This document shows positions 9,173 to 64,000 of a stretch of 64,000 bases of DNA, piece after piece. Location: positions 1-64,000 of the forward strand of contig NZ_CAMBNZ010000006.1 in the NCBI RefSeq assembly GCF_945869175.1, in the 5' to 3' direction. Origin of the DNA: Limnohabitans sp. Rim8. Lineage in GTDB: Bacteria; Pseudomonadota; Gammaproteobacteria; Burkholderiales; Burkholderiaceae_C. The first letter of the stretch is position 1, and every line of letters starts with the position of its first letter. The notes under the pieces are model-generated. The model made no database searches and was not told the origin of the DNA. It worked only from the letters and a program-made list of their open reading frames with translations. The position numbers and the translations under genes are program-made.

Positions 9173-9180
9173 GAACTGCC

Positions 9181-46722: not shown

Positions 46723-46774
46723 TCGCCCCGATGGATGACCCTTCTCAACCCCCCGATCTTGAAAGGCCTTGTGC

Positions 46775-50002: not shown

Positions 50003-50710
50003 ATGAACCTCACAGGTGGATGGCACTGGCACTGGCGCGCATGGCGATCTCAACAGCGCTGGGCCTCGGCATCGGCTCACATCGAAGCGTGGCTGCTGGC
50101 GCAAACCATGCCGCGCCAACAACTGGTGCTGATCGGTGCGAGCGCCGGGTGGATGATGCCCACGGCCTGGCTTGCACAATTCAAAACCATTCACGCCTGG
50201 GACATTGACCCCTTGGCTGCGCCCTTGTTTCGATGGCGCCATGGCACCACGTTGAAGCACCTTGGGGTGGCATTGCACATGCACACAGGCGATGGCCTGG
50301 CCCGTCTTCCTCAACTGGTGCAAGCCCATTCCGATGCGTTCTTCTGGTTTGACAATGTGCTGGGGCAATTGCGCTTCACAGGACCGGATTTATCGAGTGT
50401 CGAGTGGCAGTTGTACCAAATTCAAAAAAACATGCGCTCGGTGGCATGGGGCAGTGTGCATGACCGCATGTCAGGGCGCTGCGCACCCAAAGGTGCACTG
50501 CCATTACCCCAAGAGGGTCTTGCCCCCGTGGCCATGGACAGCCCTTCGGCCCAAACCTGGCTGCATCGCATGGGGGCCATCAGCCCCTGTCTGGACCACC
50601 TGACCGAGCATGTCTTGCCCAAGGGCACACCGGTCCAGCACACCGCCTGGGATTTCAAGCCAGGCTATGCGCACTGGCTTGAAATGGGCTGGTGCCCAGC
50701 CGGCCAATGA
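50003..50710 (+). CDS. Hypothetical protein with a methyltransferase-like N-terminal motif
   Basis: A 235-residue protein rich in Trp and His that I do not recognise as a named family. LVLIGASAGWMMPTAWLAQF followed by IHAWDIDPLAAPLFRWRHG resembles motif I and the acidic end of strand 2 of Rossmann-fold SAM-dependent methyltransferases, and FFWFDNVLGQL resembles motif IV. No signal peptide or membrane helix. It begins 40 bases after the VWA gene and may belong to that operon. Function unknown. Confidence 0.7.
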   Translation: MNLTGGWHWHWRAWRSQQRWASASAHIEAWLLAQTMPRQQLVLIGASAGWMMPTAWLAQFKTIHAWDIDPLAAPLFRWRHGTTLKHLGVALHMHTGDGLARLPQLVQAHSDAFFWFDNVLGQLRFTGPDLSSVEWQLYQIQKNMRSVAWGSVHDRMSGRCAPKGALPLPQEGLAPVAMDSPSAQTWLHRMGAISPCLDHLTEHVLPKGTPVQHTAWDFKPGYAHWLEMGWCPAGQ

Positions 50711-50763
50711 AACTGGTCAGTGCCCATTTCACACGCTTGTGACAGCACCGGTGAACTCAAGAT

Positions 50764-51312
50764 TCAACGAGCGCTTGTCAAAGCCTCCACGGAAAATTCA
50801 ATGATTTTTTTGTAATTGTCCAAAATTTGGCGCATCTCGACGACCAGGCTGCGCCTTGGCCATGCGCACCAAGTCGCTGGCCGATTTGATCCCCGTTTTG
50901 GGATGGGCCACCAACATCAAGGTACCTTAGGCCGTCATGCCAATCGGTGCAAAGTCGGTGATCGGGTTGTAACTGCTCTTGGCGGTCATTTGCGTGGCCA
51001 TCAGCATGGTGTTGGCCGTGATCAACAAGGTGTGCCATCAGGCGCCGACTTGGCCACAACATGCGAGCCTATATTGTCGCTGGCACCTGCCTGGTTTTGC
51101 ACCACCACCGGTTGGCCCAAACGCTCACTCAGCCGGGGCGCCACGGCACGGGCAATCGTGTCCATGCCTTTGCCTGGCATGAAAGGCACAATGATTTTGA
51201 TGGGCTGCGTGGGGTAAAACACAGCTGTCTGGGCTTGCGACGCAGCCATGACCACCAAGGCCGTGAAGCCCATCAGCCATCTGAGACCATGGCGAAGTGA
51301 AGGGAATGTCGT
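50764..51312 (-). pseudogene. Decayed Bug-family receptor gene
   Basis: The reverse strand reads as a Bug receptor with several lesions. The start is ACG (51310-51312) behind a good AGGAG site, then a signal peptide and FYPTQPIKIIVPFMPGKGMD in one frame. One base is missing near 51034 (the PDGHTLL region), shifting the frame. A TAA (50927-50929) follows within the next segment (ITDFAPIGMTA). After SDLVRMAKAQPG a large internal piece is gone and the frame shifts again, leaving only a C-terminus ending KKIIEFSVEALTSAR and TGA (50764-50766). About 180 codons remain of the usual 320. Confidence 0.85.
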
Positions 51313-51333
51313 GGAAGTCTCCTGTCGTTGAAT

Positions 51334-51819
51334 TTAAAGTTCGAGCGCCCAATACTGACCCACCAAATGGTGTCCGAACGAATGGTGCGGCTCTTCAGAC
51401 AGCAAGACAAAACCTGCCGTTTGGTAAATGTGCCTGGCCGCATGCAAGATGTCATTGGTCCACAAACTCAATTTTTGATAGCCGTGGTCTTTGGCAAATG
51501 CGATGCAGGTCTGCGTCAAACGCCGGCCCAAACCAGTGCCGCGCATCTCGGGCTCCACATACAACAGACGCAACTTGGCCTCTGTGTCTGAAACCTTGAC
51601 CACAAACACCGAACCCACCACCCGTCCATCGCACTCGGCGATCCAAGCGTTTTCCTTGGCCGGCTCGAAGTTTTTGACAAATTGCGCGGCAATTTCGGCC
51701 ACCATGGCCTCGAACGTGCTGTCCCAGCCGTATTCCTGCGCATACAAAATGCCCTGGCGGTGGGCTATCCAGCCGATGTCGCCCACTTGGAGGCCACGCA
51801 AAACAAGGCCGGAGGTCAT
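51334..51819 (-). CDS. GNAT-family N-acetyltransferase
   Basis: A 161-residue acetyltransferase. The acetyl-CoA pyrophosphate loop is RGTGLGRRLTQTCI, preceded by the central strand LRLLYVEPEM and followed by KLSLWTNDILHAARHIYQ and a GF motif (TAGFVLLSEE). The YGWDSTFEAMVAEIAAQF helix resembles the C-terminal acetyltransferase domain fused to some MarR proteins. It overlaps the lyase gene by four bases and is last in the long leftward catabolic unit; its substrate is unknown. Confidence 0.88.
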   Translation of the reverse strand: MTSGLVLRGLQVGDIGWIAHRQGILYAQEYGWDSTFEAMVAEIAAQFVKNFEPAKENAWIAECDGRVVGSVFVVKVSDTEAKLRLLYVEPEMRGTGLGRRLTQTCIAFAKDHGYQKLSLWTNDILHAARHIYQTAGFVLLSEEPHHSFGHHLVGQYWALEL

Positions 51820-52712
51820 GCATTGTTCCCGCTTTCGTAGCGTTGTCCCAAGGCCAGCAGCTGCGGCGTTTCAATCACCGCATTCAGGCCATCAAAGTCC
51901 AGCATCTGTGCTTGCCAAGGCCGTGTGGTCTGGTGTGTGTGCAAGCTGGCGTAATAGCCTTGCAGCATGTGCAACACTGCACGCGCTGTGCCACCGGGAA
52001 AGATCACGATTTTGAAACCGCGCTCACCCAGTTCGGCCGCACTTTGCACCGGCGTCTTGCCGCCCTCGACCATGTTGGCCAACAGCGGTACACGGTTGGC
52101 AAACTGTGCGCAGGCGCTGTTCATCTGCTCATCCGAGCGCAAAGCTTCGATGAACAAGGCATCAACGCCGCATTCCAAATAGCGCTCGGCCCGCTCCAAG
52201 GCGGCGTCCAGACCTTCCACAGCCACCGCATCGGTGCGGGCCAAAATCAAGGTGTTGGGGTCATGGCGGGCATCCAGCGCTGCACGCAGCTTGCCCTGCA
52301 TCTCGGCCACCGGCACCACACCTTTGCCGTCCAGGTGGCCGCAGCGTTTGGGGAAAGTCTGGTCTTCGATCTGGATCATCGCGGCCCCAGCCCGCTCAAA
52401 ATCACGCACGGTGCGCTGGGTATTGAGCGCATTGCCAAAGCCCGTGTCCGCGTCCACGATGACCGGAATGCTGACCCGGTCGGTGATGTGGGCCAGCGTC
52501 TGCGCCACTTCGGTGGCGGTGGTCAGGCCGATGTCTGAACGCCCCAAGCGTGTGTAAGCAATCGATGCGCCCGACAGGTACAAGGCTTCAAAACCCGCCT
52601 GCTGCGCGACCAACGCGGTGAGCGCGTCGTACACACCTGGCGCAAGCAAGGCCTGCTCTTGTTGCAAGCGCTGGGCCAAAAGGCATTGGGCCAAATTGTG
52701 GGGCTGGCTCAT
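51816..52712 (-). CDS. Isocitrate lyase/PEP mutase superfamily C-C lyase
   Basis: A 298-residue TIM-barrel lyase. Seen: APGVYDALTALVAQQAGFEA, IPVIVDADTGFGNALNTQRT with Mg-binding acids, QIEDQTFPKRCGHLDGKGVV containing the KRCGH catalytic-cysteine loop of isocitrate/methylisocitrate lyases, and LILARTDAVAVEGLDAALER. Members split 2-methylisocitrate, 2,3-dimethylmalate, oxaloacetate or related acids. The cysteine loop favours lyase over phosphonate mutase activity. It overlaps its neighbours by ATGA on both sides. Confidence 0.9.
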   Translation of the reverse strand: MSQPHNLAQCLLAQRLQQEQALLAPGVYDALTALVAQQAGFEALYLSGASIAYTRLGRSDIGLTTATEVAQTLAHITDRVSIPVIVDADTGFGNALNTQRTVRDFERAGAAMIQIEDQTFPKRCGHLDGKGVVPVAEMQGKLRAALDARHDPNTLILARTDAVAVEGLDAALERAERYLECGVDALFIEALRSDEQMNSACAQFANRVPLLANMVEGGKTPVQSAAELGERGFKIVIFPGGTARAVLHMLQGYYASLHTHQTTRPWQAQMLDFDGLNAVIETPQLLALGQRYESGNNA

Positions 52713-54124
52713 GGCGGCGAATCCTTCAAAAGTTGTTGTGCGGTGTGCGCCGCGATATGCCCGCCCGCCACGGCGCTGAGCAAGCCGTTGCCCGACAAAT
52801 AGCCCCACACCGCTTGGCCGGAAACGCCCCGGGCCGCGCCGCCTGCGGCCAGCAAATTGGGCAGTGGGGTGCCGTCTCCACGCAACACGCGGGCTTGTGC
52901 GTCAATGTCCAGGCCGCCTTGGGTGTGGAACAAAGCGCCGGTCACCTTGACGGCATGAAACGGCGCTTGCAGTGCACGTTTGAATGTGCGGCCCGTGGCT
53001 GTGTCGGTGCCCGGTTTCACTGCGTTCAATGTGGCCTGCAAAACTTCCAAAGGGCAACCGATCAGTTGAGCCAACTCAGCCGCATCGGCTGAATGTTGCA
53101 CCGCACCAGCGTTTTGCGCCGCCACAAAATCGGGGAACTCCTGCACAAAATTCAAGAGTGCACCGTCGAACACATTCCAAGCCACACGACCGGGCTGCGC
53201 CAGCACCTGCACGGCTGCTTCCGAGTAGCCCTGGGTTTCGTCGTGAAAGCGCTGGCCTTGGGCGTTGATCTGCACGCCACCTTCCATGATGAGCGCCCAC
53301 GAAATCAAAGCGCCTTGGGGCACCGCCCAAGAGCCATGCCCTTGGTACGCGCCCAAGTCAGCCAGGCGTGCGCCCAGTTGTTGGCCCCATGCAATGGCAC
53401 TGCCGTCGTTGCCCACATGGCCCGCATAGGTGGCCTCGGCCATCTCGGGCAACAAGTCTTGGACCATCGCGGTGGCCCCGCCAAAACCATTGCAGGCCAG
53501 CAACACCAAATCACAGCGGATGCGCTCGGTTTGCCCATCAGGACGCACAAAACCCACCCCGTGGAGGCGTTGCACACCATCGGCCCACAGCTCGGTCACC
53601 TGCGCTTGCGTCAAAACCACCACGCCTGCCGCATCGGCCGCCGCTTGCAGGCGACTCATCAATCCAGCACCGGTTTTTTCGGGTACGGCGTGCATGCGGT
53701 GGGCGCTGTGGCCGGGGTACAAAAAGTTGTCCAGCACCTGCCAGGGCAGACCGTGGTGGGTGGCCAGAGCATCCATGGCCGGACCGATGTGCTGGGCATA
53801 GGCCTGCACCAAATGCGGCGCAGCCTGACCATGGGCCTTGGCCTGAATGTCGGCGGCAAATGCTGCAACGCTGTCCTGGATGCCTTGGGCCTCTTGCGCC
53901 TGTGTGCAAGGCGCCGGAATGAACCCCGAAGACAAAGCCGTGGATCCAGCGGCAAATGCGTCACGCTCCAGCACCACGCAGGCCACACCCAAGCGGTGCA
54001 AAGCCAGCGCAGCGGTCAGACCACAAGCGCCAGCACCCACGATCACGACCGGTGTGTGGTCGTCGGCATGCACATGGGCTGAAAGTTCAGCAGCCGGGCG
54101 AACTTGCGGCAACGGCGCGTCCAT
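52709..54124 (-). CDS. FAD-dependent reductase/dehydrogenase (fumarate reductase flavoprotein-like)
   Basis: A 471-residue flavoprotein with the Rossmann FAD motif VVIVGAGACGLTAALALHRL (about 26-45), an ERDAFAAGSTALSSGF loop, a central substrate domain, and a closing FAD segment in LLAAGGAARGVSGQAVWGYL. This fits the FAD_binding_2 group, which includes soluble fumarate reductases, urocanate reductase and 3-ketosteroid dehydrogenases. No signal peptide or heme domain, so it is cytoplasmic. In this operon it could reduce or desaturate a C-C bond of the intermediate. Only four bases separate it from the amidohydrolase gene. Confidence 0.85.
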   Translation of the reverse strand: MDAPLPQVRPAAELSAHVHADDHTPVVIVGAGACGLTAALALHRLGVACVVLERDAFAAGSTALSSGFIPAPCTQAQEAQGIQDSVAAFAADIQAKAHGQAAPHLVQAYAQHIGPAMDALATHHGLPWQVLDNFLYPGHSAHRMHAVPEKTGAGLMSRLQAAADAAGVVVLTQAQVTELWADGVQRLHGVGFVRPDGQTERIRCDLVLLACNGFGGATAMVQDLLPEMAEATYAGHVGNDGSAIAWGQQLGARLADLGAYQGHGSWAVPQGALISWALIMEGGVQINAQGQRFHDETQGYSEAAVQVLAQPGRVAWNVFDGALLNFVQEFPDFVAAQNAGAVQHSADAAELAQLIGCPLEVLQATLNAVKPGTDTATGRTFKRALQAPFHAVKVTGALFHTQGGLDIDAQARVLRGDGTPLPNLLAAGGAARGVSGQAVWGYLSGNGLLSAVAGGHIAAHTAQQLLKDSPP

Positions 54125-54128
54125 GCCT

Positions 54129-54731
54129 TCAGCCCAGATGCTTCAAAAAAGTGGCGCTGTCCATCACATCACCCACCGAAGCCATGTCGGCCAGAGCCGC
54201 TTGGTGTGCGGCTTCGCTGAAGGCCGCACAACCGTCCGACAACACAATGGCGTGGTAATCGCGCACATGCGCATCACGCACCGTGCTGGCCACGCCGCCG
54301 TTCGTGACGATGCCGCACACCACCAAGGTGTCGATGCCCGATTTTTTGAGTACCCAATCAAGTTGCGTGTTGAAGAAGGCCGAATACGCCACCTTGAACA
54401 CCGACACATCGACCAAGGGCGCGAGCATGTCTACATTGGCCTGGCCCCGGCTGCCCGGTGCAAAGTCGCCTTGACGCAAAAACGGGCGGCGCTCTTTGAG
54501 GTGCGCCGAAATCATGGGCTCGCCCTGGGCATCTGGCCACAGGGTGAACAGGCTGGCCGTGACCAACCCACCGCGCCCCTTGATGGCACGCGCCACCGGT
54601 GCCATGCGCTCGGGCAACTTCACCGCTTCGGCGCTCAGGGTATTGCCCCGGGCATACGCACCGTCGGGGGCCAGAAAATCGTTTTGCAAGTCGACAATGA
54701 CCATGCCCAATTTCGCATTTTTCAAGTTCAT
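54129..54731 (-). CDS. Isochorismatase-fold cysteine amidohydrolase
   Basis: A 200-residue cysteine hydrolase. The Asp-Lys-Cys triad is visible: Asp in VIVDLQNDFLAPDGAYA, Lys in VFKVAYSAFFNT and Cys in LVVCGIVTNGGVASTVRDA. This branch contains N-carbamoylsarcosine amidase, maleamate amidase, nicotinamidase and ureidoacrylate hydrolase. Placed directly after hyuA, it could cleave the open-chain amide or carbamoyl product of the hydantoinase-type enzyme. It overlaps hyuA by four bases. Confidence 0.88.
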   Translation of the reverse strand: MNLKNAKLGMVIVDLQNDFLAPDGAYARGNTLSAEAVKLPERMAPVARAIKGRGGLVTASLFTLWPDAQGEPMISAHLKERRPFLRQGDFAPGSRGQANVDMLAPLVDVSVFKVAYSAFFNTQLDWVLKKSGIDTLVVCGIVTNGGVASTVRDAHVRDYHAIVLSDGCAAFSEAAHQAALADMASVGDVMDSATFLKHLG

Positions 54732-56800
54732 GCTGTGCGCTCCACCAAGAGGTTGCCCAGTTTGTCCACCCGGCCTTCAAAACCTGGCTCCAACCACACC
54801 GTGGTGTCGGGCTGCTCCAAAATGGCGGGGCCTTGCACCACGGTGCCCACAGGCAGGCTCAGGCGCTCGAAGCGCTGTGCCGTCCACCACTGGCCCTGGT
54901 GGTAGACCTGCTGCTGGCCCACCGGGGTGGTGCGGCCCTCGCCTTGCGGAGCCAGCACGGCCAGATCGAACTTGGGGCGCCGCCCGATGCGGGCATACCG
55001 CAGGTTCATCACACGGATCACCGGGCCCCGCAGCACGCGGCCAAAGGCATGCTGGTAAGCGGCTTCAAAAGCGGCCAGCAAGCCTGCCGCATGCAAAGCT
55101 TCAAGTTTCACCGGCACTTGCAGCGTGTGCGTTTGGCCCATGTAGAGCATGTCAAAGCTGATGACTTCATCCACCCGCACAAAGTTCACACCCGCAGAGT
55201 CCAAACGCACTTGGCAAGCTTCGGCCAAACCATCCACGCGTTGCAGCAAAGCAGGCCAGGACACATCGGCCAAGGCCACGTTCAGGGTCTGCACCGCATC
55301 GTGTCGCATGTCGGCCATGACACAGCCCAGCGCCGAGGTGACGCCCGGGTAACGCGGCACGATGCCGGTGGTGACACCCACCTCGCGCATCATGGCGCAC
55401 ACATGCAGGCCGCCGCCGCCGCCAAACGGCATGTAGGCAAATTGACGTGGGTCATGCCCACGCTCAATCGACACCACGCGGATCGCACCGGCCATGCGGG
55501 CATTGGCCACCGTCAAAATCGCTTCGGCCGCGGCCAACGCCGTCAAGCCCAAAGGCTCGGCCACATGCTGGGCAATGGCTTGCTCCGACAAACCCGAATC
55601 CAATTTCTGCAGCAGGCCACCGCCCAAAGGCCGGTCGGCCGCGATGCGGCCCAGCAGCACATTGGCATCGGTCACCGTGGGGCGGGTGTTGCCACGCCCA
55701 TAGCAGGCGGGGCCGGGAATGCTGCCTGCCGACTCGGGGCCGACTTGCAGCATGCCCCCCGCATCGACCGAGGCGATGGAGCCGCCACCGGCACCGATGG
55801 TCTCGATCTGGATCATGGGCGAGCGCACCACCAAGCCAAATTCAATAGAGGTTTGCGCAGCCAGTGCCGCTTCACCTCCAGCCACCAAGGACACATCAAA
55901 CGAAGTGCCGCCAATGTCGCCGGTGATGACGTTTTCAAAACCCGAAGCGCGGGCGATTTCGGCGCAGGCCATCACACCTGCAGCGGGGCCCGACAGTGCA
56001 GTGCGCACCGGCACATCGCAAGCAGTCTGGCGCGACATGACGCCGCCATTGCTTTGCACAATCAGCAGTTCACCACCAAAGCCCTGTGCACGCAAATCAC
56101 CCTCCAGGCGCTGTAAATAGCTGCCCACCACAGGCTGCAAAGCGGCATTGAGTGTGGCGGTGGAACAGCGCTCAAACTCGCGAATTTCGGGCAACACTTC
56201 GCTGGCCGCCGTCACGTAGCTGTTGGGCCAAATGGCCCGCACAGCGGCCACAGCGGCTTGTTCGTTACCGGGGTTGGCATAGGCGTGCACAAAGAACACG
56301 CAGACCGCCTCGCAGCCTTCGGCCAGCAAGGCGCGGGCCTGTTCGCGCACTTGGACCAGGTCCACAGGCGTGTGCAACTGGCCATCGGCCAGCACGCGCT
56401 CGTCCACTTCCAGACGCCAAGCTCGCGGCACCACGGGCGTGTAGCTGCCGCGCAGGCCCCAGGTTTGCGGGCGATCGCGGCGGCGCATCTCCAGCACATC
56501 GCGAAAACCGCGTGTGGTGATGATGCCGGTGCGGGCGATCTTGCGTTCCAGCAAGGCGTTGGTGCCCACCGTGGTGCCGTGCACGATGGTGGCGATGTCT
56601 TTGGCCCCTTCGGCCCCCGTGGCCCCGGTCACTTTGGCGATGCCATTCATGAACCCCCGGGCTTCTTCACCCCGGGTCGACGGCACTTTGACAATGCGGG
56701 CCTGGCCGGTTTTTTCGTCCAGCACAAACAGGTCAGTGAAGGTCCCACCCACGTCCACGCCAACGACCCAATGGGCTGGGTTCCATGATGGCTCGCTCAT
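54728..56800 (-). CDS. Hydantoinase/oxoprolinase subunit A (HyuA family)
   Basis: A 690-residue ATP-dependent subunit. The N-terminal VVGVDVGGTFTDLFVLDEKT is the actin-like phosphate-binding loop, followed by ERKIARTGIITTRGFRDVLE and RRRDRPQTWGLRGSYTPVVP. The middle has QSNGGVMSRQTACDVPVRTA, GDIGGTSFDVSLVAGGE and GNTRPTVTDANVLLGR. The family couples ATP hydrolysis to lactam/imide opening (5-oxoproline, N-methylhydantoin, caprolactam) or to carboxylation of ketones. The substrate here is unknown. It works with the adjacent B subunit, overlapping it by four bases. Confidence 0.93.
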   Translation of the reverse strand: MSEPSWNPAHWVVGVDVGGTFTDLFVLDEKTGQARIVKVPSTRGEEARGFMNGIAKVTGATGAEGAKDIATIVHGTTVGTNALLERKIARTGIITTRGFRDVLEMRRRDRPQTWGLRGSYTPVVPRAWRLEVDERVLADGQLHTPVDLVQVREQARALLAEGCEAVCVFFVHAYANPGNEQAAVAAVRAIWPNSYVTAASEVLPEIREFERCSTATLNAALQPVVGSYLQRLEGDLRAQGFGGELLIVQSNGGVMSRQTACDVPVRTALSGPAAGVMACAEIARASGFENVITGDIGGTSFDVSLVAGGEAALAAQTSIEFGLVVRSPMIQIETIGAGGGSIASVDAGGMLQVGPESAGSIPGPACYGRGNTRPTVTDANVLLGRIAADRPLGGGLLQKLDSGLSEQAIAQHVAEPLGLTALAAAEAILTVANARMAGAIRVVSIERGHDPRQFAYMPFGGGGGLHVCAMMREVGVTTGIVPRYPGVTSALGCVMADMRHDAVQTLNVALADVSWPALLQRVDGLAEACQVRLDSAGVNFVRVDEVISFDMLYMGQTHTLQVPVKLEALHAAGLLAAFEAAYQHAFGRVLRGPVIRVMNLRYARIGRRPKFDLAVLAPQGEGRTTPVGQQQVYHQGQWWTAQRFERLSLPVGTVVQGPAILEQPDTTVWLEPGFEGRVDKLGNLLVERTA

Positions 56801-58470
56801 GCTTGTTCCTTGGTGTATCCGAGTGCACTGTCCTTGGCGCGGTCTTGAACCGAGCGTTCCGCAGGCTCACCCCAGCCGCCGCCACCGGGTGTTTGCAGGC
56901 GCACACGGTCGCCCTTTTTCAATTGGATGCCCAGCATCTTCGAGACCATGGGCGGGGTCTTCCACGCGCCGCTCTGGCAATACTCAAACACATTGGGCAA
57001 TGCGGGTTGACCGCCGTGTATGCCTTTGGGCGCCGACTTGCCGCGCTCGCCAAAGATGAAGGCTTCGGCGCTGTCTTCGAGCAATTCGATCTCGTAGATC
57101 GCCCCTAGACCACCCCGGTGTTGGCCGTCGCCACCCGAGCCGGGGCGCAAGGCCCACTGGGTGAAACGCACCGGGTAGGCCGCTTCCAAAATTTCCATCG
57201 GCGGGATCGTGGCGGTGGAGATCGGCGCGTTGCCGTGTGACAGACCATCGCCATCCGAATGGCCGCCATGGCCGCCGCCAAAAAAGCTGAACATCACCCA
57301 GCGCTGGCCTTTGCGCTTCTCGTCCGTACGGTGGCCCGCGATCGACAAGGCGTTGATGGTGCCGTAGGCATGGGCCACGGCCCGCTGCGGATCGGCCAAG
57401 GCGGTGGCGCTGAAGATCACGTCGATCATGCGCAAAATGGTTTCGGTGTAACCGCCCACTGGACGGGGCCGCGAGGCGCTGATGACCAAGCCATCGGGGA
57501 TGATGAAGTCCACCGCATCGAGCACGCCTGCGTTGGCGGGCACATCGGGGAACACATGCTTCAAAGCCACGTAACAAGCGGCCACCGCCGTGGCCCGCGA
57601 GATGTTCACCGGGCCTGCGCACTGCGCCGAGGTTCGCGAAAAATCGAGCGTGAGACGGTCACCGTTCACCGTCATGTCGAGCGCGATGGTCAGCAACTCG
57701 TCTTTCACGCCGTCGTTGTCCAGCACGTCTTCAAAACTGTAACGGCCATCGGGCAAGCTGCCGATGTGCGAGCGCATCAAGCGCACAGCGCGTGTGCGCA
57801 GCTCGACCAAGGCTTGTGCCACTTTGGCATCGCCATATTCGTCCAGCAAACCATCGAGGCGGCGTGCGCCCAGCTCCAGCGCAGCCAACTGGCCGTTCAA
57901 ATCTCCCCACAGGCTGTCGGGCAGGCGGGTGTTCGCGCGCAAAATGGCCAGCACATCGTCGTCGAGCGCGCCGCCGCGCAAGATGCGCACCGGCGGGATC
58001 TGCACCGCTTCTTGCCAGCACTCGGTTGCGGCCGGGTTGTAGTTGCCGGGCACCGCACCGCCCACATCGTGCCAGTGCGCGGCCGAGGCCAAAAAGCAAT
58101 ACAACTGCCCCTGACGAAAGCAGGGCTTGACCAGTTTGAAGTCATTGGCGTGCGTGCCGCCCTCATACGGGTCGTTGAACAACCACACATCGCCCGGCTG
58201 CATGCCACCGCGCTCAGCGGCCACACGCATGGCTGCCCGTACGGCAAAAGCCATGGCCCCCACGAACACCGGCAAACCTGACTTACCCTGAATCAGGGTA
58301 TCGCCGGTGATGGCGTCGTACAGACCGTGGCAGGCGTCATGTGCTTCGGCAATGATGGGGTTGAAGGCGCTGCGGTACAGCGTCGCGTCCATCTCGTCCG
58401 CAATTTGTTCGAGCCGACCGCGCAGCACGGCAAGGGTCACAGGGTCCATCACTGTCTCGTTGGGATTCAT
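56797..58470 (-). CDS. Hydantoinase/oxoprolinase subunit B (HyuB family)
   Basis: A 557-residue partner of HyuA. Seen: AEHDACHGLYDAITG-like HDACHGLYDA, DVWLFNDPYEGGTHANDFKL, GAVPGNYNPAATECWQEAVQ, and the late RPGSGGDGQHRGGLGAIYEI with a final LQTPGGGGWGEP. These are the metal-site and glycine-rich signatures of the B subunit. Start 58470 (MNPNETVMDP) overlaps the leuD-like stop by four bases; codons upstream lack similarity. Confidence 0.93.
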   Translation of the reverse strand: MNPNETVMDPVTLAVLRGRLEQIADEMDATLYRSAFNPIIAEAHDACHGLYDAITGDTLIQGKSGLPVFVGAMAFAVRAAMRVAAERGGMQPGDVWLFNDPYEGGTHANDFKLVKPCFRQGQLYCFLASAAHWHDVGGAVPGNYNPAATECWQEAVQIPPVRILRGGALDDDVLAILRANTRLPDSLWGDLNGQLAALELGARRLDGLLDEYGDAKVAQALVELRTRAVRLMRSHIGSLPDGRYSFEDVLDNDGVKDELLTIALDMTVNGDRLTLDFSRTSAQCAGPVNISRATAVAACYVALKHVFPDVPANAGVLDAVDFIIPDGLVISASRPRPVGGYTETILRMIDVIFSATALADPQRAVAHAYGTINALSIAGHRTDEKRKGQRWVMFSFFGGGHGGHSDGDGLSHGNAPISTATIPPMEILEAAYPVRFTQWALRPGSGGDGQHRGGLGAIYEIELLEDSAEAFIFGERGKSAPKGIHGGQPALPNVFEYCQSGAWKTPPMVSKMLGIQLKKGDRVRLQTPGGGGWGEPAERSVQDRAKDSALGYTKEQA

Positions 58471-58970
58471 GCGGGCTTCCTTTGTTTGAGCAGGGGGAGC
58501 AAGCCCCCTGCGTCGACCATGTCCATCAAAAATTCGGGGATAGGCGCACAAGCCAGGCGCTGGCCATTGGCGCGCACCAACACGGGGGTGTCGCCATCCA
58601 ACAGCATGCCCAAGCGCTCGCCCTCTTGGATCTTGTCAGCGTCCAGGCAGGTCAAAAGCAACAGGCCTAAATTGAAAGCGTTGCGAAAATACAGGCCGCT
58701 GTATGAAGGTGCAATCACCGCCGCCAGGCCCAAGTGCTTCAGCACACCGGCGGCCTGCTCGCGCGATGAGCCGATGCCGAAGTTGGCCCCTGCCACGATC
58801 ACATCGCCCTCACGGACACCGGATGCGAAATCGCTGCGCACCGCCTCAAGGCAATGCCAGCCGATCACTTCCAGGCCATGCTTCATGTAAGCGCCCGGGG
58901 CCAGGGCATCGGTGTCCACATCGGCACCCAAGCGCCAAGCCCGTGCGTTGTGAAATGCGCGCTGCATCAT
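58467..58970 (-). CDS. LeuD-like small subunit of an aconitase-family hydro-lyase
   Basis: A 167-residue swivelling domain. Opening AWRLGADVDTDALAPGAYMK matches the LeuD start (usually W..G..IDTD.I.PG.Y). GANFGIGSSREQAAGVLKHL is the conserved substrate-carboxylate loop with SSREQA, and IAPSYSGLYFRNAFNLGL follows. Paired with the next gene upstream it forms a two-subunit hydratase of the isopropylmalate/homoaconitate/dimethylmaleate/maleate hydratase type. The catabolic neighbours make leucine synthesis unlikely as its role. Confidence 0.9.
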   Translation of the reverse strand: MMQRAFHNARAWRLGADVDTDALAPGAYMKHGLEVIGWHCLEAVRSDFASGVREGDVIVAGANFGIGSSREQAAGVLKHLGLAAVIAPSYSGLYFRNAFNLGLLLLTCLDADKIQEGERLGMLLDGDTPVLVRANGQRLACAPIPEFLMDMVDAGGLLPLLKQRKPA

Positions 58971-60247
58971 GCGAGCACCTCGCGCGCATCGCAGATGTGC
59001 CCGCGCAAAGCCGAGGCCGCCACTGTGTAGGGCGAGGCCAAATACACATTCACGCTGGCCGGCCCCATGCGGCCTTTGAAGTTGCGGGCAGTGGTCGAAA
59101 TCACCGTCGATCCTTCAGGGAAAGTTGCGCCATAGCCTGCGCACGCGCCGCAACTGTTGGGCAACACGATGGCCCCGGCATCTTGCAGAATTTGCATCAC
59201 GCCTTCTTGCGTGGCTTGCGCTTGTTCACGGGCACTGGCTGGGGCCACCATGAGTTGCACACCGGCAGCCACGCGATGGCCCTTGAGCACCGACGCGGCA
59301 GCACGCAGGTCTTCCAGCTTGGCCCCGGTGCAGGCACCGATGTAAGCAATGCTGGGTTGGATGTCAGAAAAATCGGCCACATCCCGTGTGTTGGCCGGGC
59401 TGTGCGGCGCGGCCACTTGGGGGTTCAAGCGGTTGGCATCAAAATTGTGCTGCTCAAACTCGGCATCTTCGTCGGTATGCCACTGCTGGGCCCGGGTCAA
59501 ATGCGACTTGTCCACGCCCACATCCTGCAGGTATTTCAAGGTGGTTTCATCGGCCGCGATCAGACCCGCCTGCGCGCCCATCTCTGCACTCATGTTGGAG
59601 AGGGTCATGCGCTCGGCCATGGACAGTGCCTGCACGGCAGAGCCCGCAAACTCAACCGCTTGGTATTGGCCACCGTTCATGCCAAAGCGGCCCACCATGT
59701 GCAGCATCATGTCCTTGGCCGACACGCCATGTTGCAAGCGGCCCGACCAGTGCATGCGCAATGTGCGCGGCACCTGCACCCAAATTTGGCCCGTCACACA
59801 CACGCCCAACATCTCGGTCGCGCCGATGCCAAACATGTAGCAACCAAAAGCACCACCTGTTGGCGAATGCGAGTCGCCGCCCACGCCAAACATGCCGGGC
59901 TTCAAATGGCCTCGCTCAGGCAGCACCACATGGCAAATGCCTTCGCTGTCGATCACATGCGGCAATTGCCATTGTTTGGCTGTGTCACGGGTGAGCTGGA
60001 TGATCTTTTGGGCATCGGCGTCTTGTGCAGGCACATAGTGATCCAACACCAGCACCACTTTGTTTTTGTCCCAAATTTCAGCCCCCAACTCGTCGAGCAT
60101 GGGCTTGAGCCGACGTGGGCCAGACGAGTCGTGGAACATGGCCAGGTCCACCTGGCAGGTGACCACCTCACCCACGGCCACATGGGCGCGCCCCGACGCT
60201 CGGGCAATGAGTTTTTGAGCCAGGGTTTGCGACACAGCAGCGTTCAT
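58967..60247 (-). CDS. LeuC-like large subunit of an aconitase-family hydro-lyase
   Basis: A 426-residue subunit that carries the [4Fe-4S] cluster. Cluster cysteines are in IAYIGACTGAKLEDLRAAA and in NSCGACAGYGATFPEG (CxxC). FGVGGDSHSPTGGAFGCYMF is the DSH(S/T) substrate segment, and STTARNFKGRMG holds the late arginine region. The size (about 420) matches the archaeal/anaerobe-type LeuC and dimethylmaleate hydratase large subunit rather than the roughly 470-residue biosynthetic LeuC. It overlaps both neighbours by four bases. Confidence 0.9.
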   Translation of the reverse strand: MNAAVSQTLAQKLIARASGRAHVAVGEVVTCQVDLAMFHDSSGPRRLKPMLDELGAEIWDKNKVVLVLDHYVPAQDADAQKIIQLTRDTAKQWQLPHVIDSEGICHVVLPERGHLKPGMFGVGGDSHSPTGGAFGCYMFGIGATEMLGVCVTGQIWVQVPRTLRMHWSGRLQHGVSAKDMMLHMVGRFGMNGGQYQAVEFAGSAVQALSMAERMTLSNMSAEMGAQAGLIAADETTLKYLQDVGVDKSHLTRAQQWHTDEDAEFEQHNFDANRLNPQVAAPHSPANTRDVADFSDIQPSIAYIGACTGAKLEDLRAAASVLKGHRVAAGVQLMVAPASAREQAQATQEGVMQILQDAGAIVLPNSCGACAGYGATFPEGSTVISTTARNFKGRMGPASVNVYLASPYTVAASALRGHICDAREVLA

Positions 60248-61236
60248 TCGGGTTTCGCTCCAGCGTACTGAACCACCTTGCGCCAGCGAACAATCTCGCT
60301 GTCCACAAACCGGGCAAATTCTTCAGGGCTGTTGCCCACAGGTGTGGCCCCTTCGTTTTCGATGCGCCGCTTCACCTCAGGCGACTGCACTGCGGCACGT
60401 GCTGCATCGGCCAACTTTTTGGCCACATCGGGGCTCATGCGACCCGGGCCAAACAGGCCAAACCAGGCGCTGGACTCGTAGCCTGGCAGGCTCTCGCCAA
60501 TCGCGGGCACATCGGGGAATGCCGCCAGACGCTTGGCGCTGGTGACCCCCAGGGCCTTGAGTTTGCCCGCCTTGATGTGCGACTGCACATTGCCGACTGC
60601 CGCAAACATCAGGTCCACCTGACCGGCCAGCACGTCTTGCACCGCAGGAGCCGTGCCCCGGTAAGGAATGTTGACGATGAAAACGCCTGCCTGCATCTTG
60701 AACGCGTCGCCCGCCATGTGCAGCGACGAGCCCAGAGCCCCAATGGCAAAGTTCAGCTGGCCCGGCTTGGTTTTAGCCAGTTTGACCAACTCGGCCGCGT
60801 TGTTGGCGGACACCTTAGGGTGGGCCACCAAAATCGATGGCGAAGTGGACACCATGGTCAAGGGCGTGAAGTCTTTCACCGGATCGAAGGGCAAACTGGG
60901 GTACAGCGAAGCATTGATGGCATGGCTGGTGAAGCTCATGAGCAAGGTGTTGCCATCGGGTGCGGCCTTGGCCACGGCATCAGCAGCCAGATTGCCGCCC
61001 GCACCAGGCTTGTTTTCGACCACCACCGTGCGGCCCAGTTGCGAACCCAACACCTGCGCCAGGGTGCGGGCCATGGTGTCGGTGGTGCCGCCTGCGGGGG
61101 CACCCACCAAAATTTTGATGGGCGGTTGCGACTGGGCCTGAGCCCCTGCCGCCCAAGTGGCACCAACCAGAAACGTGCCCAACACCAACGCACGGCGCAT
61201 GGTCTTGGTTTGCTGCAAAGCAGATGTATGTGTCAT
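60244..61236 (-). CDS. Bug-family tripartite tricarboxylate transporter receptor
   Basis: A 330-residue periplasmic receptor with an N-terminal export signal (MRRALVLGTFLVGATWAAGA, cut at about AQAQ). Diagnostic Bug segments: IKILVGAPAGGTTDTMARTL, NKPGAGGNLAADAVAKAAPD and PYRGTAPAVQDVLAGQVDLM. The ATG at 61236 (MTHTSALQQT) has AAGGA seven bases upstream; an ATG at 61200 would start directly at the signal peptide. It is translationally coupled to the LeuC-like gene, so uptake and catabolism are expressed together. Confidence 0.92.
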   Translation of the reverse strand: MTHTSALQQTKTMRRALVLGTFLVGATWAAGAQAQSQPPIKILVGAPAGGTTDTMARTLAQVLGSQLGRTVVVENKPGAGGNLAADAVAKAAPDGNTLLMSFTSHAINASLYPSLPFDPVKDFTPLTMVSTSPSILVAHPKVSANNAAELVKLAKTKPGQLNFAIGALGSSLHMAGDAFKMQAGVFIVNIPYRGTAPAVQDVLAGQVDLMFAAVGNVQSHIKAGKLKALGVTSAKRLAAFPDVPAIGESLPGYESSAWFGLFGPGRMSPDVAKKLADAARAAVQSPEVKRRIENEGATPVGNSPEEFARFVDSEIVRWRKVVQYAGAKPE

Positions 61237-61324
61237 AAGGCTGTCCTTCGTGTCTTCCAATCCATCAGGTCCCTGCGGCAGGGGAACCCCAATGCCCTCA
61301 ATGCCCTCAAAGCACAATCTGGCC

Positions 61325-62035
61325 TCACATGCCCAGATAGGCTTGCCGCAGCGTGTCACTGGCCAACAACTGGGCCGGTGTGCCGCTGAAACGGATTTGC
61401 CCGTTTTCCATCACGTAAGCCCGGTCAGCGATGTCGAGCGACTGGCCCACGTTTTGCTCCACCAGCAAGATCGCCAGACCGCTGCTGCGCAGCTGAGCGA
61501 TCAGGCCAAACAACTCTTCCACCAACAAGGGGGACAAACCCAGCGATGGTTCGTCCAGAATCAACAAGCGCGGCTCGGCCATCAGACCCCGGCCAATGGC
61601 CAGCATCTGCTGCTCACCACCGCTCAAAGTGCCTGCCAACTGGGCCACGCGCTCTTTCAATCGTGGAAAGGTCTCGTAGACCTTGTCCAGGTTTTGCGCC
61701 CGCCGCTCACGGCCACGCGTGAAGGCACCCAGCTCCAGGTTCTCGTGCACGCTCAGGTTGGGAAACACCTTGCGGCCTTCGGGCACCTGGATCAGGCCGT
61801 GCTTGACCACCTGCCGTGAATGCAGTCCGGTGATGTCTTGACCGTTGAAAGCCACTTGTCCTGCGCGCGCGGCCACCAAGCCGCTGAGTGTGAGATTGAG
61901 CGTGGTCTTGCCCGCGCCGTTGCTCCCCAACAGCGCGACCAGTTCGCCGGGCATGACCTGCAGCGCCACACCGCGCAAGACCTCGACCACACCGTAGCCG
62001 GATTTGAGTCCCTGAACATTCAACAAAGCGTTCAT
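61325..62035 (-). CDS. livF: Branched-chain amino acid-type ABC transporter ATPase LivF
   Basis: A 236-residue ABC ATPase. Walker A GSNGAGKTTLNLTLSGL, the Q-loop region IQVPEGRKVFPNLSVHENLE, signature TLSGGEQQMLAIGRGLM, Walker B LLILDEPSLGLSPLLVEELF and the switch His position occupied by Gln in LLVEQNVGQSLDIADRAYVM, usual for LivF. Start 62035 (MNALLNVQGL) overlaps the livG stop by ATGA. It is the second ATPase of a LIV-type importer whose substrate need not be an amino acid. Confidence 0.93.
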   Translation of the reverse strand: MNALLNVQGLKSGYGVVEVLRGVALQVMPGELVALLGSNGAGKTTLNLTLSGLVAARAGQVAFNGQDITGLHSRQVVKHGLIQVPEGRKVFPNLSVHENLELGAFTRGRERRAQNLDKVYETFPRLKERVAQLAGTLSGGEQQMLAIGRGLMAEPRLLILDEPSLGLSPLLVEELFGLIAQLRSSGLAILLVEQNVGQSLDIADRAYVMENGQIRFSGTPAQLLASDTLRQAYLGM

Positions 62036-62808
62036 GCCTGAACCTCCTGGGCGGACTGCGCATGGGCTGTGTTCTTGTGCAAACGCTCGGCCGTGCCGTG
62101 GCCCAGATAAGCCTCGATCACAGCAGGGTTGTGGGTGACCTCGGCCGGGGTGCCCTGGGCAATCAGTTGTCCTTGGGCCAGCACCCAGACCTCTTGGGCC
62201 AGGCTCATCACCGCTTGCATGACGTGCTCGATCATCAGCACCGTCACACCGCTTTGTGCAATGCCTTGCACCACCGGGATCATCTCGGCGATTTCTTGCG
62301 GGTTCAATCCGGCCAGCACCTCGTCGAGCAGCAGCAAGCGGGGCCTCGTGGCCAATGCACGCGCCAGCTCCAGCCGCTTGCGCCCGGCCACCGTGAGGTC
62401 GCTGGCCAATTTGTCGAGCTGAGGCGTCAAGCCCACTTGCAGCGCGACCGACTCGGCAAATTCGAGCGCTTGCGAGCGGCCAGGCCAATGCAGGTGCGCC
62501 CCGACCGCGATGTTTTCGCGCACGGTTTGTGCTGCAAAGGGCTGCACGATCTGAAAAGTTCGCGTCAGGCCCATGCGGGCATTCAGGTGCGGTGGCTGGC
62601 CGGTGATGTCCTGACCGGTAAACAATACACGGCCCATGTCAGGGGTGAGAAAACCCGACATGAGCGCAAACAAGGTGGTCTTGCCCGCTCCGTTGGGGCC
62701 AATCAGGGCGCTCAAGCGCCCTTCGGTGACCGACATGCTCACGTTTTGCACCGCCTTGAGGCCACCAAAAGACTTGCCTAAGCCCTCGAGTTGCAGCAGC
62801 GTGCTCAT
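62032..62808 (-). CDS. livG: Branched-chain amino acid-type ABC transporter ATPase LivG
   Basis: A 258-residue ABC ATPase: Walker A GPNGAGKTTLFALMSGFLTP, GLTRTFQIVQPFAAQTVREN, the family's altered signature SDLTVAGRKRLELARALATR, Walker B LLLLDEVLAGLNPQEIAEMI and the switch MIEHVMQAVMSLAQEVWVL. The LDEVLAGL wording is seen in a LivG subgroup from catabolic operons. Start 62808 overlaps the livM stop by four bases. Confidence 0.93.
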   Translation of the reverse strand: MSTLLQLEGLGKSFGGLKAVQNVSMSVTEGRLSALIGPNGAGKTTLFALMSGFLTPDMGRVLFTGQDITGQPPHLNARMGLTRTFQIVQPFAAQTVRENIAVGAHLHWPGRSQALEFAESVALQVGLTPQLDKLASDLTVAGRKRLELARALATRPRLLLLDEVLAGLNPQEIAEMIPVVQGIAQSGVTVLMIEHVMQAVMSLAQEVWVLAQGQLIAQGTPAEVTHNPAVIEAYLGHGTAERLHKNTAHAQSAQEVQA

Positions 62809-63782
62809 GGTTTTTCTCCACCAGACTTGCCGCCACGCAGCCACTGCAGTGGTGTGATGGTGCCCAGCCCCGCAATGCCGCGCGGCAGGAACATCACGAT
62901 CACGATCAGCACCACGCCATATATCACCATATTGATGCCGGGCAACTGGCCAAACAGATTACGTGTCAGGTCGGCCAGGATGTGCAAGCTGACGGCCCCC
63001 AAAAGCGGCCCCCACAACGTGCCCAATCCGCCCACGATCGCGCCCACCAGGGCCTCGACCGAAGTGTGTGAACCAAATGCAATGGCCGGGTCGATGTACT
63101 GAAAGACCTGTACATAAAAAGCGCCACCAGCACCCATCAGGCCACCCGACAAAATGGTGGCGATCAGCTTGACGCTGAAGGGGTTCACGCCAATGGCTCG
63201 GGCCGCGTCTTCGTTGTCGCGCACGGCTTGCAGGTATGCGCCAAAGCGAGAGTGGCGCAGCCATGCAGTGATGCACAAGGCCAAGGCCACCAGCCCCAAC
63301 ATCAACCAAATGAACCCGGCGCGGCTGCCAAATTGCATATTGGACGCCGACTCCTTGAGCGGAAGCATCAAACCCACACCTGCGCCGGTAAAGGGCACCG
63401 AGGTGGCCAAAATCCTGAACACCTCGGCAAAGGCCAATGTGACCAAAGCAAAGTACGAACCCTTGAGCCCATATCGGAAAGAGGCTGCGCCCACGAAGGC
63501 GCCCACACCCGCCGCAAAGCCCATGGCCAAGGGCAAAGCCACCCAGGGGCTCAGACCCCACTGCATTTGCGCAATGGCTTGAACATAAGCACCGGTGCCA
63601 AAAAACAGCGCATGGCCAAACGAAAACTGTCCGCCATACCCCCCCAAGATGTTCCATGCTTGCGACAACAAACAGGCGTAAAGCGAGGTCATGACAAAGT
63701 TGAGCATCACCCCCGATTGCGTGAAAAAGGGCACCGCACCGACCACCACCACAAACAGCGCAATGTTGCGAAAGTCTTTCAT
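62805..63782 (-). CDS. livM: Branched-chain amino acid-type ABC transporter permease LivM
   Basis: A 325-residue permease with nine to ten hydrophobic segments. The family EAA-like stretch is AYLQAVRDNEDAARAIGVNP, followed by FSVKLIATILSGGLMGAGGA. SLYACLLSQAWNILGGYGGQFSFGHALFFG (cited in part as WNILGGYGGQFSFGHA) is the N-terminal LivM signature. It overlaps livH upstream and livG downstream by four bases each. Confidence 0.94.
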   Translation of the reverse strand: MKDFRNIALFVVVVGAVPFFTQSGVMLNFVMTSLYACLLSQAWNILGGYGGQFSFGHALFFGTGAYVQAIAQMQWGLSPWVALPLAMGFAAGVGAFVGAASFRYGLKGSYFALVTLAFAEVFRILATSVPFTGAGVGLMLPLKESASNMQFGSRAGFIWLMLGLVALALCITAWLRHSRFGAYLQAVRDNEDAARAIGVNPFSVKLIATILSGGLMGAGGAFYVQVFQYIDPAIAFGSHTSVEALVGAIVGGLGTLWGPLLGAVSLHILADLTRNLFGQLPGINMVIYGVVLIVIVMFLPRGIAGLGTITPLQWLRGGKSGGEKP

Positions 63783-64000
63783 GCCTTCGCTCCAAAAAAT
63801 CCTTGCGGTCTGAGCAAAAGTACCACAATGAAAATCACAAAAATGCCCACTTGGCCCAGGGACTCGCCCAACAGCAACCCCCCCAGCGACTCCACCACAC
63901 CAATCAGCAAACCACCCAGCAATGCGCCGGCAAAACTGCCCATGCCACCCAACACCACGATGGTGAAGGCCACCAAGACAAAACCATTGCCGACCTGCGG
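63779..64000 (-). CDS. livH: Branched-chain amino acid-type ABC transporter permease LivH (3' end only)
   Basis: The last 73 codons of a permease gene that continues past the right edge. The segment FTIVVLGGMGSFAGALLGGL followed by GVVESLGGLLLGESLGQVGI and LLLRPQGFFGAKA is the typical LivH C-terminus. The frame is open to the window edge. It overlaps livM by four bases. Whether a livK receptor gene lies upstream cannot be seen. Confidence 0.9.
   Translation of the reverse strand, partial: PQVGNGFVLVAFTIVVLGGMGSFAGALLGGLLIGVVESLGGLLLGESLGQVGIFVIFIVVLLLRPQGFFGAKA

Follow-up and report, generated by a model that had tools for sequence, protein, structure and literature searches.

A conserved gene cluster of Limnohabitans and its relatives that may import and break down a cyclic imide

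Introduction

The fermentation of nicotinate by Eubacterium barkeri ends with a dimethylmaleate hydratase (DmdAB), fed by methyleneglutarate mutase and methylitaconate isomerase, and with a 2,3-dimethylmalate lyase. Here we describe a gene cluster of Limnohabitans sp. Rim8 that resembles this tail, in that a predicted hydratase of the LeuCD family is followed by a predicted lyase of the isocitrate lyase/phosphoenolpyruvate (PEP) mutase superfamily, and the leuD-like product passes the LeuD/DmdB model. The cluster lies at the end of the window, by which we mean the whole stretch of DNA analysed, 64,000 nucleotides long (positions 1-64,000 of contig NZ_CAMBNZ010000006.1, which ends 1,991 bases further, at 65,991). 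Unlike the E. barkeri genes, the unit comprises no enamidase, cobalamin mutase or methylitaconate isomerase, would be fed by HyuAB and an isochorismatase-fold protein, and is carried by freshwater, soil and marine bacteria. Neither methyleneglutarate mutase nor methylitaconate isomerase was found among the nine unit genes scanned, the rest of the genome not being searched, and nicotinate fermentation as a whole was rejected because its feeder genes are missing from the unit.

Three further systems invite comparison. In the methylcitrate cycle (AcnD/PrpD, PrpB) hydration likewise precedes a cleavage that yields a 2-oxo acid plus a carboxylate, and MmgE/PrpD relatives adjoin the lyase gene in two of our loci; however, the unit has no citrate-synthase homologue and its lyase falls under the prpB cut-off. 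ATP-dependent hydantoinases, 5-oxoprolinases and caprolactamases (HyuAB, CapAB) share with the unit two subunits with ATP and metal motifs, whereas the unit scores below the caprolactamase cut-offs and has other partner genes. Finally, the isochorismatase-fold protein has the fold, the aspartate and the lysine of RutB, biuret hydrolase and maleamate amidase, but a glycine in place of their cysteine. Judged by motif, it seems to share a glycine in the loop binding the substrate carboxylate with the isochorismatases EntB, PhzD and VibB, from which it differs in its weaker sequence match and its other neighbours, the unit not being biosynthetic.

Results

The gene set was followed in the best 80 of 307 confirmed relatives, picked by similarity of leuC; the set holds many near kin and several loci clipped by contig ends. 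Loci and genomes bear our own L and G numbers. Typing relied on tblastn with identity thresholds (L089 was put in type B by hand), and gene starts in several loci are approximate, as they come from a codon-usage gene caller. L112, L113 and L123, probably the same records as L048, L049 and L058, were left out of the leuC tree and of the overlap and motif counts, and alignment A1 was used without row L040. Gene content, order, conservation, module structure and motifs were observed directly.

All seven enzymes (leuC-like, leuD-like, hyuB, hyuA, isochorismatase-fold protein, flavoprotein and lyase) are present in 51 of the 80 loci, and order and strand are identical in 51/51; as many of these loci are near relatives, they are not independent. 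A reading of the window from its sequence only had proposed that transport is paired here with an unassigned catabolic route and had suggested looking for the set in other Burkholderiales. That search bears out a conserved unit joining transport genes to predicted enzymes of ring opening, hydration and carbon-carbon cleavage, the genes being found together and not scattered. The same reading knew of no described pathway with exactly this set; we found no paper on it either in the open-licence literature searched, most subscription journals being outside that scope. Start-stop overlaps are kept at some junctions and vary at others, given here as overlaps over readable junctions: leuC/leuD (87/87), Bug/leuC (55/55), lyase/GNAT (16/16), hyuB/hyuA (66/67), livG/livF (64/68), livH/livM (49/61), hyuA/isochorismatase-fold (48/66), livM/livG (41/58), flavoprotein/lyase (40/70), leuD/hyuB (34/71), isochorismatase-fold/flavoprotein (23/62) and livF/Bug (11/52). 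The GNAT gene accompanies the lyase in 15 of the 66 lyase-bearing loci of the set and is an optional passenger.

The most unusual member of the unit is the isochorismatase-fold protein. Its homologues are annotated automatically as 'cysteine hydrolase' or RutB, and the sequence-only reading had it hydrolyse an amide. The fold and the Asp and Lys residues agree with the cysteine amidases of this superfamily (RutB, NicF, BiuH): the predicted structure (predicted local distance difference test, pLDDT, 91.1) has BiuH (biuret hydrolase), RutB and maleamate amidases as its nearest PDB folds by Foldseek, with template modelling (TM) scores over the query of 0.72-0.81 across the 50 PDB rows listed; the Asp and Lys motifs (Asp14, Lys113) are kept in 65/65 homologues, and these two residues and many further positions are invariant in 18 aligned homologues. 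The nucleophilic cysteine, in contrast, is absent. TNGG (Gly146) replaces TN-x-C in 65/65 genomic and 10/11 plasmid homologues, the sole plasmid exception being a 31%-identity outgroup (L137), and amide hydrolysis as first proposed is therefore doubtful.

A different catalytic arrangement could explain this loss. Judged by sequence motif, the glycine of the isochorismatases presumably occupies the position of the RutB cysteine, as does Gly146 here. Our comparison with the EntB/PhzD pocket (Gln79, Arg88, Tyr152 and Gly156 of Stenotrophomonas maltophilia EntB) covered the glycine alone, by motif. In PhzD and VibB, according to a passage of PMC12210187, the pyruvyl carboxylate binds main-chain amides, including that of Gly156 in S. 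maltophilia EntB, and a lysine is conserved. A glycine loop of this type could hold a carboxylate of the substrate, so that the carboxylate itself could attack a cis amide; by this analogy a half-amide of the maleamic acid type, with its cis carboxylate as nucleophile, could account for the missing cysteine. Substituted maleamic acids are known to hydrolyse with help from their carboxyl group, a reaction reportedly studied by Kirby and Lancaster in 1972. Their title on substituted maleamic acids is carried in the reference list of PMC6384577.

HyuA has N-methylhydantoinase as its best solved relative (422.5 bits), with 5-oxoprolinase also near and the acetophenone and acetone carboxylases behind. 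Each ATP motif occurs in 64/64 HyuA sequences, the first being counted after extension of clipped matches, and the Asp-His-Asp-His metal site of HyuB is represented by the HxxD and AHxxD motifs in 67/67 and the Asp motif in 66/67. Compared with the ATP and metal motifs of caprolactamase as given in part of PMC8453981, these motifs identify HyuAB as a probable ATP-dependent cyclic-amide hydrolase. Against the caprolactamase equivalogs the scores are 507 and 274.5 bits, short of the cut-off of 1000.

The leuC-like and leuD-like products carry the expected motifs (GxCT and CxxC in 89/89, GSSRE in 85/85) and pass hacA_fam and TIGR02087, which places them in the LeuCD/DmdAB hydro-lyase family. The leucine-specific models are failed (TIGR00170, 247 against 560.25 bits; TIGR02083, 354.2 against 610.65 bits). 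The K[RK]CGH motif of isocitrate lyase/PEP mutase superfamily lyases is found in 72/72 lyases; the lyase of the window, a member of this superfamily, stays below the prpB equivalog (TIGR02317, 292.5 against 354.4 bits), and a second PrpB-like match (261.9 bits) lies elsewhere in the genome. Among its solved relatives is a chain named 2,3-dimethylmalate lyase (159.7 bits), below the methylisocitrate lyases. Leucine biosynthesis and the methylcitrate cycle were rejected on these scores under the equivalog cut-offs, and plain maleate/malate as the substrate of these enzymes because it does not fit what we take to be the chemistry of the lyase.

The flavoprotein aligns with flavocytochrome c and has Tyr300 and Gly441 in place of its two substrate-side arginines, which we take to be the catalytic arginine and a second substrate-binding arginine. 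GYSEA, which contains Tyr300, occurs in 70/70 homologues, and Tyr300, Gly441, His263 and His400 do not vary across 17 aligned rows, of which five come from plasmid loci. The protein thus lacks the arginines of fumarate reductase and flavocytochrome c, and fumarate-type reduction of the dicarboxylate was rejected since the catalytic arginine is missing. The 'reduction or desaturation' proposed earlier survives as a flavin step, moved off the dicarboxylate. Because the arginines are missing, because the gene is absent from two loci with hyuAB and because it is absent together with hyuAB from four reduced loci, the flavoprotein probably works ahead of ring opening or alongside it, and less likely on the dicarboxylate.

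The loci fall into modules. Hydantoinase-type genes (hyuA or hyuB) mark 63 of the 80 loci (type A), another feeder is found in 11 (type B), in three only leuCD-lyase remain (beside Bug in two) and three are untypable. In the leuC tree (90 rows, short search, with no row from L120 or L121) the reduced state, leuC-leuD-lyase without hyuAB, appears on three separate branches: L038 with L039, L093 as sister to the full locus L060, and L078 among Paraburkholderia and Burkholderia. Flavoprotein and hyuAB are both missing from these four loci; Bug is kept in L038 and L039, not in L078 and L093. The genes flanking L038 and L093 correspond, by first residues or blastp, to those around the full clusters of relatives, and loss in place is therefore likely at these two loci. 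Conversely, L075 and L084 (Paraburkholderia/Burkholderia) keep hyuAB and the isochorismatase-fold gene and lack the flavoprotein. In L084 (11784-13452, Burkholderia) hyuB is also in two pieces, and this locus is possibly broken.

In type B, leuCD-flavoprotein-lyase are joined to short-chain dehydrogenase/reductase (SDR), DUF4387 and AtuA genes, and in several loci an allantoinase-PuuE-like and an MmgE/PrpD gene stand divergently upstream. L074 is a hybrid, in which type-B genes accompany a lyase 94% and a GNAT protein 78% identical to those of the window; this suggests that types A and B share the substrate of the lyase. Taken together, the reduced loci, type B and the hybrid make leuCD and the lyase look like a tail able to stand alone (hydration and carbon-carbon cleavage), and hyuAB with the isochorismatase-fold protein look like one of at least two feeders. 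Type-B genes were seen in L074, L076, L077, L079-L083, L085, L086, L089 and L096, some clipped by contig ends, and some of these loci add an MmgE/PrpD, PuuE-like, coenzyme A (CoA)-transferase or arylmalonate-decarboxylase-like gene; this context may help to assign roles to AtuA and DUF4387. L065 (18403-20030) continues past the lyase, in line, with PuuE-like and Asp/Glu/hydantoin racemase genes, so that a further cyclic-amide hydrolase family is attached there.

Within the genus, 60 genomes, some incomplete, were searched at E <= 1e-100 for the leuC-like gene, 1e-70 for the lyase, 1e-30 for the isochorismatase-fold gene and 1e-150 for hyuA. The leuC-like gene is present in 42/60 and the lyase in 44/60 (one a fragment). 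The isochorismatase-fold gene is found in 33/60, and 32 of those 33 have a hyuA orthologue (at least 80% identity), G005 having a hyuA fragment; the other 27 have neither gene, save a 45% hyuA paralogue in G031 (remoter paralogues exist). All 33 feeder-bearing genomes have the lyase and 32 have leuC, while leuC and lyase occur without the feeder in nine. G029 and G071 gave a lyase match and no leuC match, G029 keeping a fragment only and G071 having its lyase at a contig end.

Class-wide sampling was too thin (1/274 genomes positive, the window's own), so a family sample was used. At E <= 1e-25, 14 of 399 genomes, the window's own included, carry the isochorismatase-fold gene; the lowest identity is 65%, and the subfamily is thus sharply bounded in the family. 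Twelve loci of the 13 other genomes were extended (G616 was left out), three of the twelve probably repeating records already in the set. Ten show leuCD-hyuBA-isochorismatase-fold-flavoprotein-lyase in order, L117 among them with MmgE/PrpD and a second Bug inserted. In L120 a contig end cuts inside hyuA. L121 carries the isochorismatase-fold gene (9021-9638, with TNGG) and no hyuAB within the fetched 19.9 kb. Its neighbours, read by similarity or by eye, include Bug, arylmalonate-decarboxylase-like, flavin monooxygenase-like, hydroxymethylglutaryl-CoA-lyase-like and CoA-transferase genes and distant leuCD, and the monooxygenase-like protein is 55% identical to one adjoining the L086 type-B cluster.

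A looser form of the unit occurs on plasmids. Of 31 records found with tblastn at E <= 1e-15, 11 were fetched; ten, nine alphaproteobacterial and one from Paraburkholderia (L132), have homologues of at least 49% identity with TNGG, hyuB and hyuA. The eleventh, Novosphingobium L137 (31% identity), carries cysteines in place of TNGG and gave no match to any further gene of the unit. Among the ten, the lyase is present in nine, the flavoprotein in seven (L132 giving no match) and a LeuC relative in eight, at 35-39% identity except in L132 (69%); in L130 leuC is divergent and cut by the end of the fetched stretch. An MmgE/PrpD gene directly precedes the lyase in Roseomonas L130 (6005-7402) and Neorhizobium L131 (5838-7268), and since no LeuC match was found within the fetched stretch of L131, MmgE/PrpD may replace LeuCD there. 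A distant LeuC or MmgE/PrpD at the place of the hydratase in alphaproteobacterial loci is as expected if hydration is needed. On three Sulfitobacter plasmids a GntR gene separates leuC-leuD and a tripartite ATP-independent periplasmic (TRAP) transporter, in line with leuCD and annotated for C4-dicarboxylates, from a second run of a tautomerase or DUF4440 gene, hyuB, hyuA, isochorismatase-fold, lyase and flavoprotein. A few genes past the cluster of Sulfitobacter S190 (L135, 16691-22546) stand molybdenum hydroxylase genes and one annotated as 6-hydroxynicotinate reductase, a possible hint of an N-heterocycle.

In the window itself (Table 1), direct checking confirmed the coordinates, strand and spacing given earlier for thirteen leftward genes. 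ATGA overlaps join livH/livM, livM/livG, livG/livF, Bug/leuC, leuC/leuD, leuD/hyuB, hyuB/hyuA, hyuA/isochorismatase-fold, flavoprotein/lyase and lyase/GNAT, and gaps of 88 and 4 bases separate livF from Bug and the isochorismatase-fold gene from the flavoprotein gene. The thirteen genes stand; the unit is, however, longer, with fourteen genes, or fifteen if a regulator belongs to it. Upstream of the Liv-type binding protein only the end of a further protein lies on the contig, 29 residues long and over that length identical to the product of the GntR-like gene heading the cluster in L014. Since the cluster begins in relatives with a GntR-like gene, the binding protein and livH, the natural unit probably reads GntR-SBP-livHMGF-Bug-leuC-leuD-hyuB-hyuA-isochorismatase-fold-flavoprotein-lyase(-GNAT), SBP being the substrate-binding protein. 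It is likely transcribed as one transcript: as weak evidence, a consensus scan of 50700-64000 found no sigma-70-like promoter (2.6 expected in shuffles) and 20 terminator-like sites, about the same as the 16.9 in shuffles. Rfam gave nothing at gathering scores in L002, L014 and L087.

Directly after GNAT lies a remnant of a second Bug gene (50546-51276, minus), in two pieces of different frames. The second Bug of L018 is 317 residues long; the pieces correspond to its residues 1-81 and 82-239, and its end is unmatched. L018, L022 and L041 have an open second Bug at that place, 36-37% identical to the first Bug, and then a gene read by eye as flavin monooxygenase. Further off, at 46769-49959 (plus), MoxR-type AAA ATPase, DUF58 and VWA genes stand in line, apparently unrelated to the operon.

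Table 1. Genes of the unit on contig NZ_CAMBNZ010000006.1, in order of transcription; functions are predicted.
Gene or product	Coordinates	Strand	Remarks
Liv-type substrate-binding protein	65880-64678	minus	open frame on contig beyond window
livH, permease	64651-63779	minus	cut by window edge at 64000; complete and open on contig
livM, ATP-binding cassette (ABC) permease	63782-62805	minus	also beside the enzymes in relatives
livG, ABC ATP-binding protein	62808-62032	minus	
livF, ABC ATP-binding protein	62035-61325	minus	
Bug/TctC-type periplasmic binding protein	61236-60244	minus	Pfam TctC 244.5 bits
leuC-like, Fe-S (iron-sulfur) hydro-lyase large subunit (homoaconitase/isopropylmalate-isomerase family)	60247-58967	minus	NCBIfam subfamily models and motifs
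leuD-like small subunit (LeuD/DmdB family)	58970-58467	minus	TIGR02087 139.1 bits, cut-off 108.95
hyuB, metal subunit, ATP-dependent cyclic-amide hydrolase	58470-56797	minus	Pfam Hydantoinase_B 552.9 bits
hyuA, ATP subunit, ATP-dependent cyclic-amide hydrolase	56800-54728	minus	Pfam; N-methylhydantoinase best solved relative
Isochorismatase-fold protein without nucleophilic cysteine	54731-54129	minus	D14, K113, TNGG at 143-146
Flavin adenine dinucleotide (FAD) flavoprotein, fumarate-reductase/flavocytochrome c type	54124-52709	minus	Tyr300 at catalytic Arg position
Lyase, isocitrate lyase/PEP mutase superfamily	52712-51816	minus	nearest methylisocitrate lyase; TIGR02317 292.5 bits
GNAT acetyltransferase, optional accessory	51819-51334	minus	Pfam

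Discussion

The reading that we prefer, and to which we give an even chance, is that the cluster is a catabolic operon for a cyclic imide. From what is known of the protein families we infer the reactions, their order and the class of substrate. The Liv ABC transporter would import a cyclic imide of small size, or else a cyclic amide close to it. On its ring the flavoprotein would most likely act in an optional step, such as conversion between the saturated and the unsaturated form. HyuAB would then open the ring at the expense of ATP, and the cysteine-less isochorismatase-fold protein would free ammonia from the half-amide to leave an unsaturated, probably alkyl-substituted, maleate-type dicarboxylate, which Bug may also import in free form. 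Addition of water by the LeuCD-like hydro-lyase would yield a hydroxy-dicarboxylate, to be cleaved by the lyase; one product would be a 2-oxo acid, either pyruvate or glyoxylate, and the other a carboxylate. The outline of the chemistry drawn in the sequence-only reading is kept in this proposal; its amidase step has become doubtful and its flavin step has been relocated. We prefer an imide because two hydrolyses turn it into a dicarboxylate without a transaminase or an aldehyde dehydrogenase, neither of which is among the unit genes. A hydantoin (via carbamoyl amino acid to amino acid) and a simple lactam were rejected, as they would need a transaminase or deaminase and the unit has none.

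Several points weigh against this proposal. The sequence fits an imide, a lactam, a hydantoin or an enamide alike. A cysteine-free amidase would be unusual, the closest folds are true cysteine-using amidases, maleamate amidases included, and the protein could carry out another reaction or none; in L121 its gene stands without hyuAB. The product of the feeder may also go elsewhere than this tail in some loci. Tistrella L128, which has an acyl-CoA dehydrogenase and a CoA-transferase gene between the isochorismatase-fold gene and leuC, has hyuAB and gave no lyase or flavoprotein match, and Allorhizobium L136 (a record without annotation) gave no LeuC or flavoprotein match; given these absences and that of hyuAB from L121, the feeder product may not always enter the tail. 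Lastly, PMC6733357, in the part concerned, proposes that HyuAB-type genes of Ti plasmids open lactam opines. The same proposal would suit an alternative that we regard as possible but unlikely, in which HyuAB opens a cyclic enamide or lactam, the isochorismatase-fold protein hydrolyses an enamine (or enol ether) and the tail handles a later product. Its mechanism would be like that of isochorismatase on a vinyl ether, protonation and then water, and the carboxylate-binding glycine of PhzD and VibB (PMC12210187, in part) seems to lie at the Gly146 position; a tautomerase-domain gene heads the Sulfitobacter hyuBA unit, and the gene annotated as 6-hydroxynicotinate reductase lies near the S190 cluster. 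Yet the unit has no dehydrogenase or transaminase with which to reach a dicarboxylate, and in sequence as well as in fold the protein comes closest to RutB, BiuH, maleamate amidases and further cysteine hydrolases, not to isochorismatases.

It is also conceivable, though quite improbable in our view, that the isochorismatase-fold protein has no catalytic activity and partners HyuAB in a structural or regulatory role, the half-amide being hydrolysed spontaneously or by another enzyme. The absence of the catalytic cysteine from 65/65 genomic and 10/11 plasmid homologues and, among the genus genomes, the strict pairing of the gene with hyuA would agree with this, but the invariance of Asp14, Lys113 and many other positions in 18 homologues suggests that the active site is kept, and L121 has the gene without its supposed partner. 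We hold it very unlikely that HyuAB is a carboxylase of the acetone/acetophenone type and opens no ring. These families are homologous, as set out in part of PMC8453981; nonetheless, hydantoinase, oxoprolinase and caprolactamase outscore the carboxylases, no third carboxylase subunit is present in the unit, and Asp instead of Lys follows the second phosphate motif in 64/64, a difference that according to a passage by the authors of PMC8453981 does not settle the mechanism. Hardly credible, finally, is a reading as ordinary leucine biosynthesis or methylcitrate-cycle genes beside a transporter: leuC/leuD and prpB are the nearest household names, but the scores fall under the leuC and prpB equivalog cut-offs, 18 (leuC-like) and 16 (lyase) of the 60 genus genomes, some incomplete, gave no match, and the linkage to hyuAB is fixed.

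Food for speculation is the identity of the imide. Oxidation of chlorophyll, haem or bilins leaves hematinic acid imide, methyl-ethyl-maleimide and methyl-vinyl-maleimide. We think it doubtful, but worth stating, that the cluster takes up and mineralises such disubstituted maleimides. HyuAB would open the imide, the cysteine-free amidase would let the cis carboxylate of the substrate attack the amide, and LeuCD and the lyase would give pyruvate plus glutarate or butyrate. Hosts that live close to phototrophs would fit this, as would a tail whose nearest chemistry is that of 2-methylisocitrate; to connect the cluster with tetrapyrroles is a guess. We count as fitting it the CoA-transferase of type-B loci L079, L082 and L089, for which the best NCBIfam model in L082 is succinate-glutarate CoA-transferase (257.4 bits, cut-off 750). 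In L070, L071 and L091 the opposite-strand gene after the lyase is, from its first residues, presumably a ferrochelatase; this probably reflects one shared neighbourhood and is no independent evidence for tetrapyrroles.

If our preferred reading of imide catabolism is true, the cluster would encode a pathway, so far undescribed, for one class of nitrogen rings, with its parts naturally sorted into feeder and tail. Its carriers are freshwater Limnohabitans and other Burkholderiales (Paraburkholderia, Variovorax, Acidovorax), with the looser form in Azospirillum and marine Sulfitobacter. The analysis also defines a sharply bounded, cysteine-less subfamily of isochorismatase-fold proteins tied to HyuAB. 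What emerges is a conserved orphan pathway, made of known kinds of enzymes plus one odd enzyme, and both the route and the subfamily can be tested in culturable strains.

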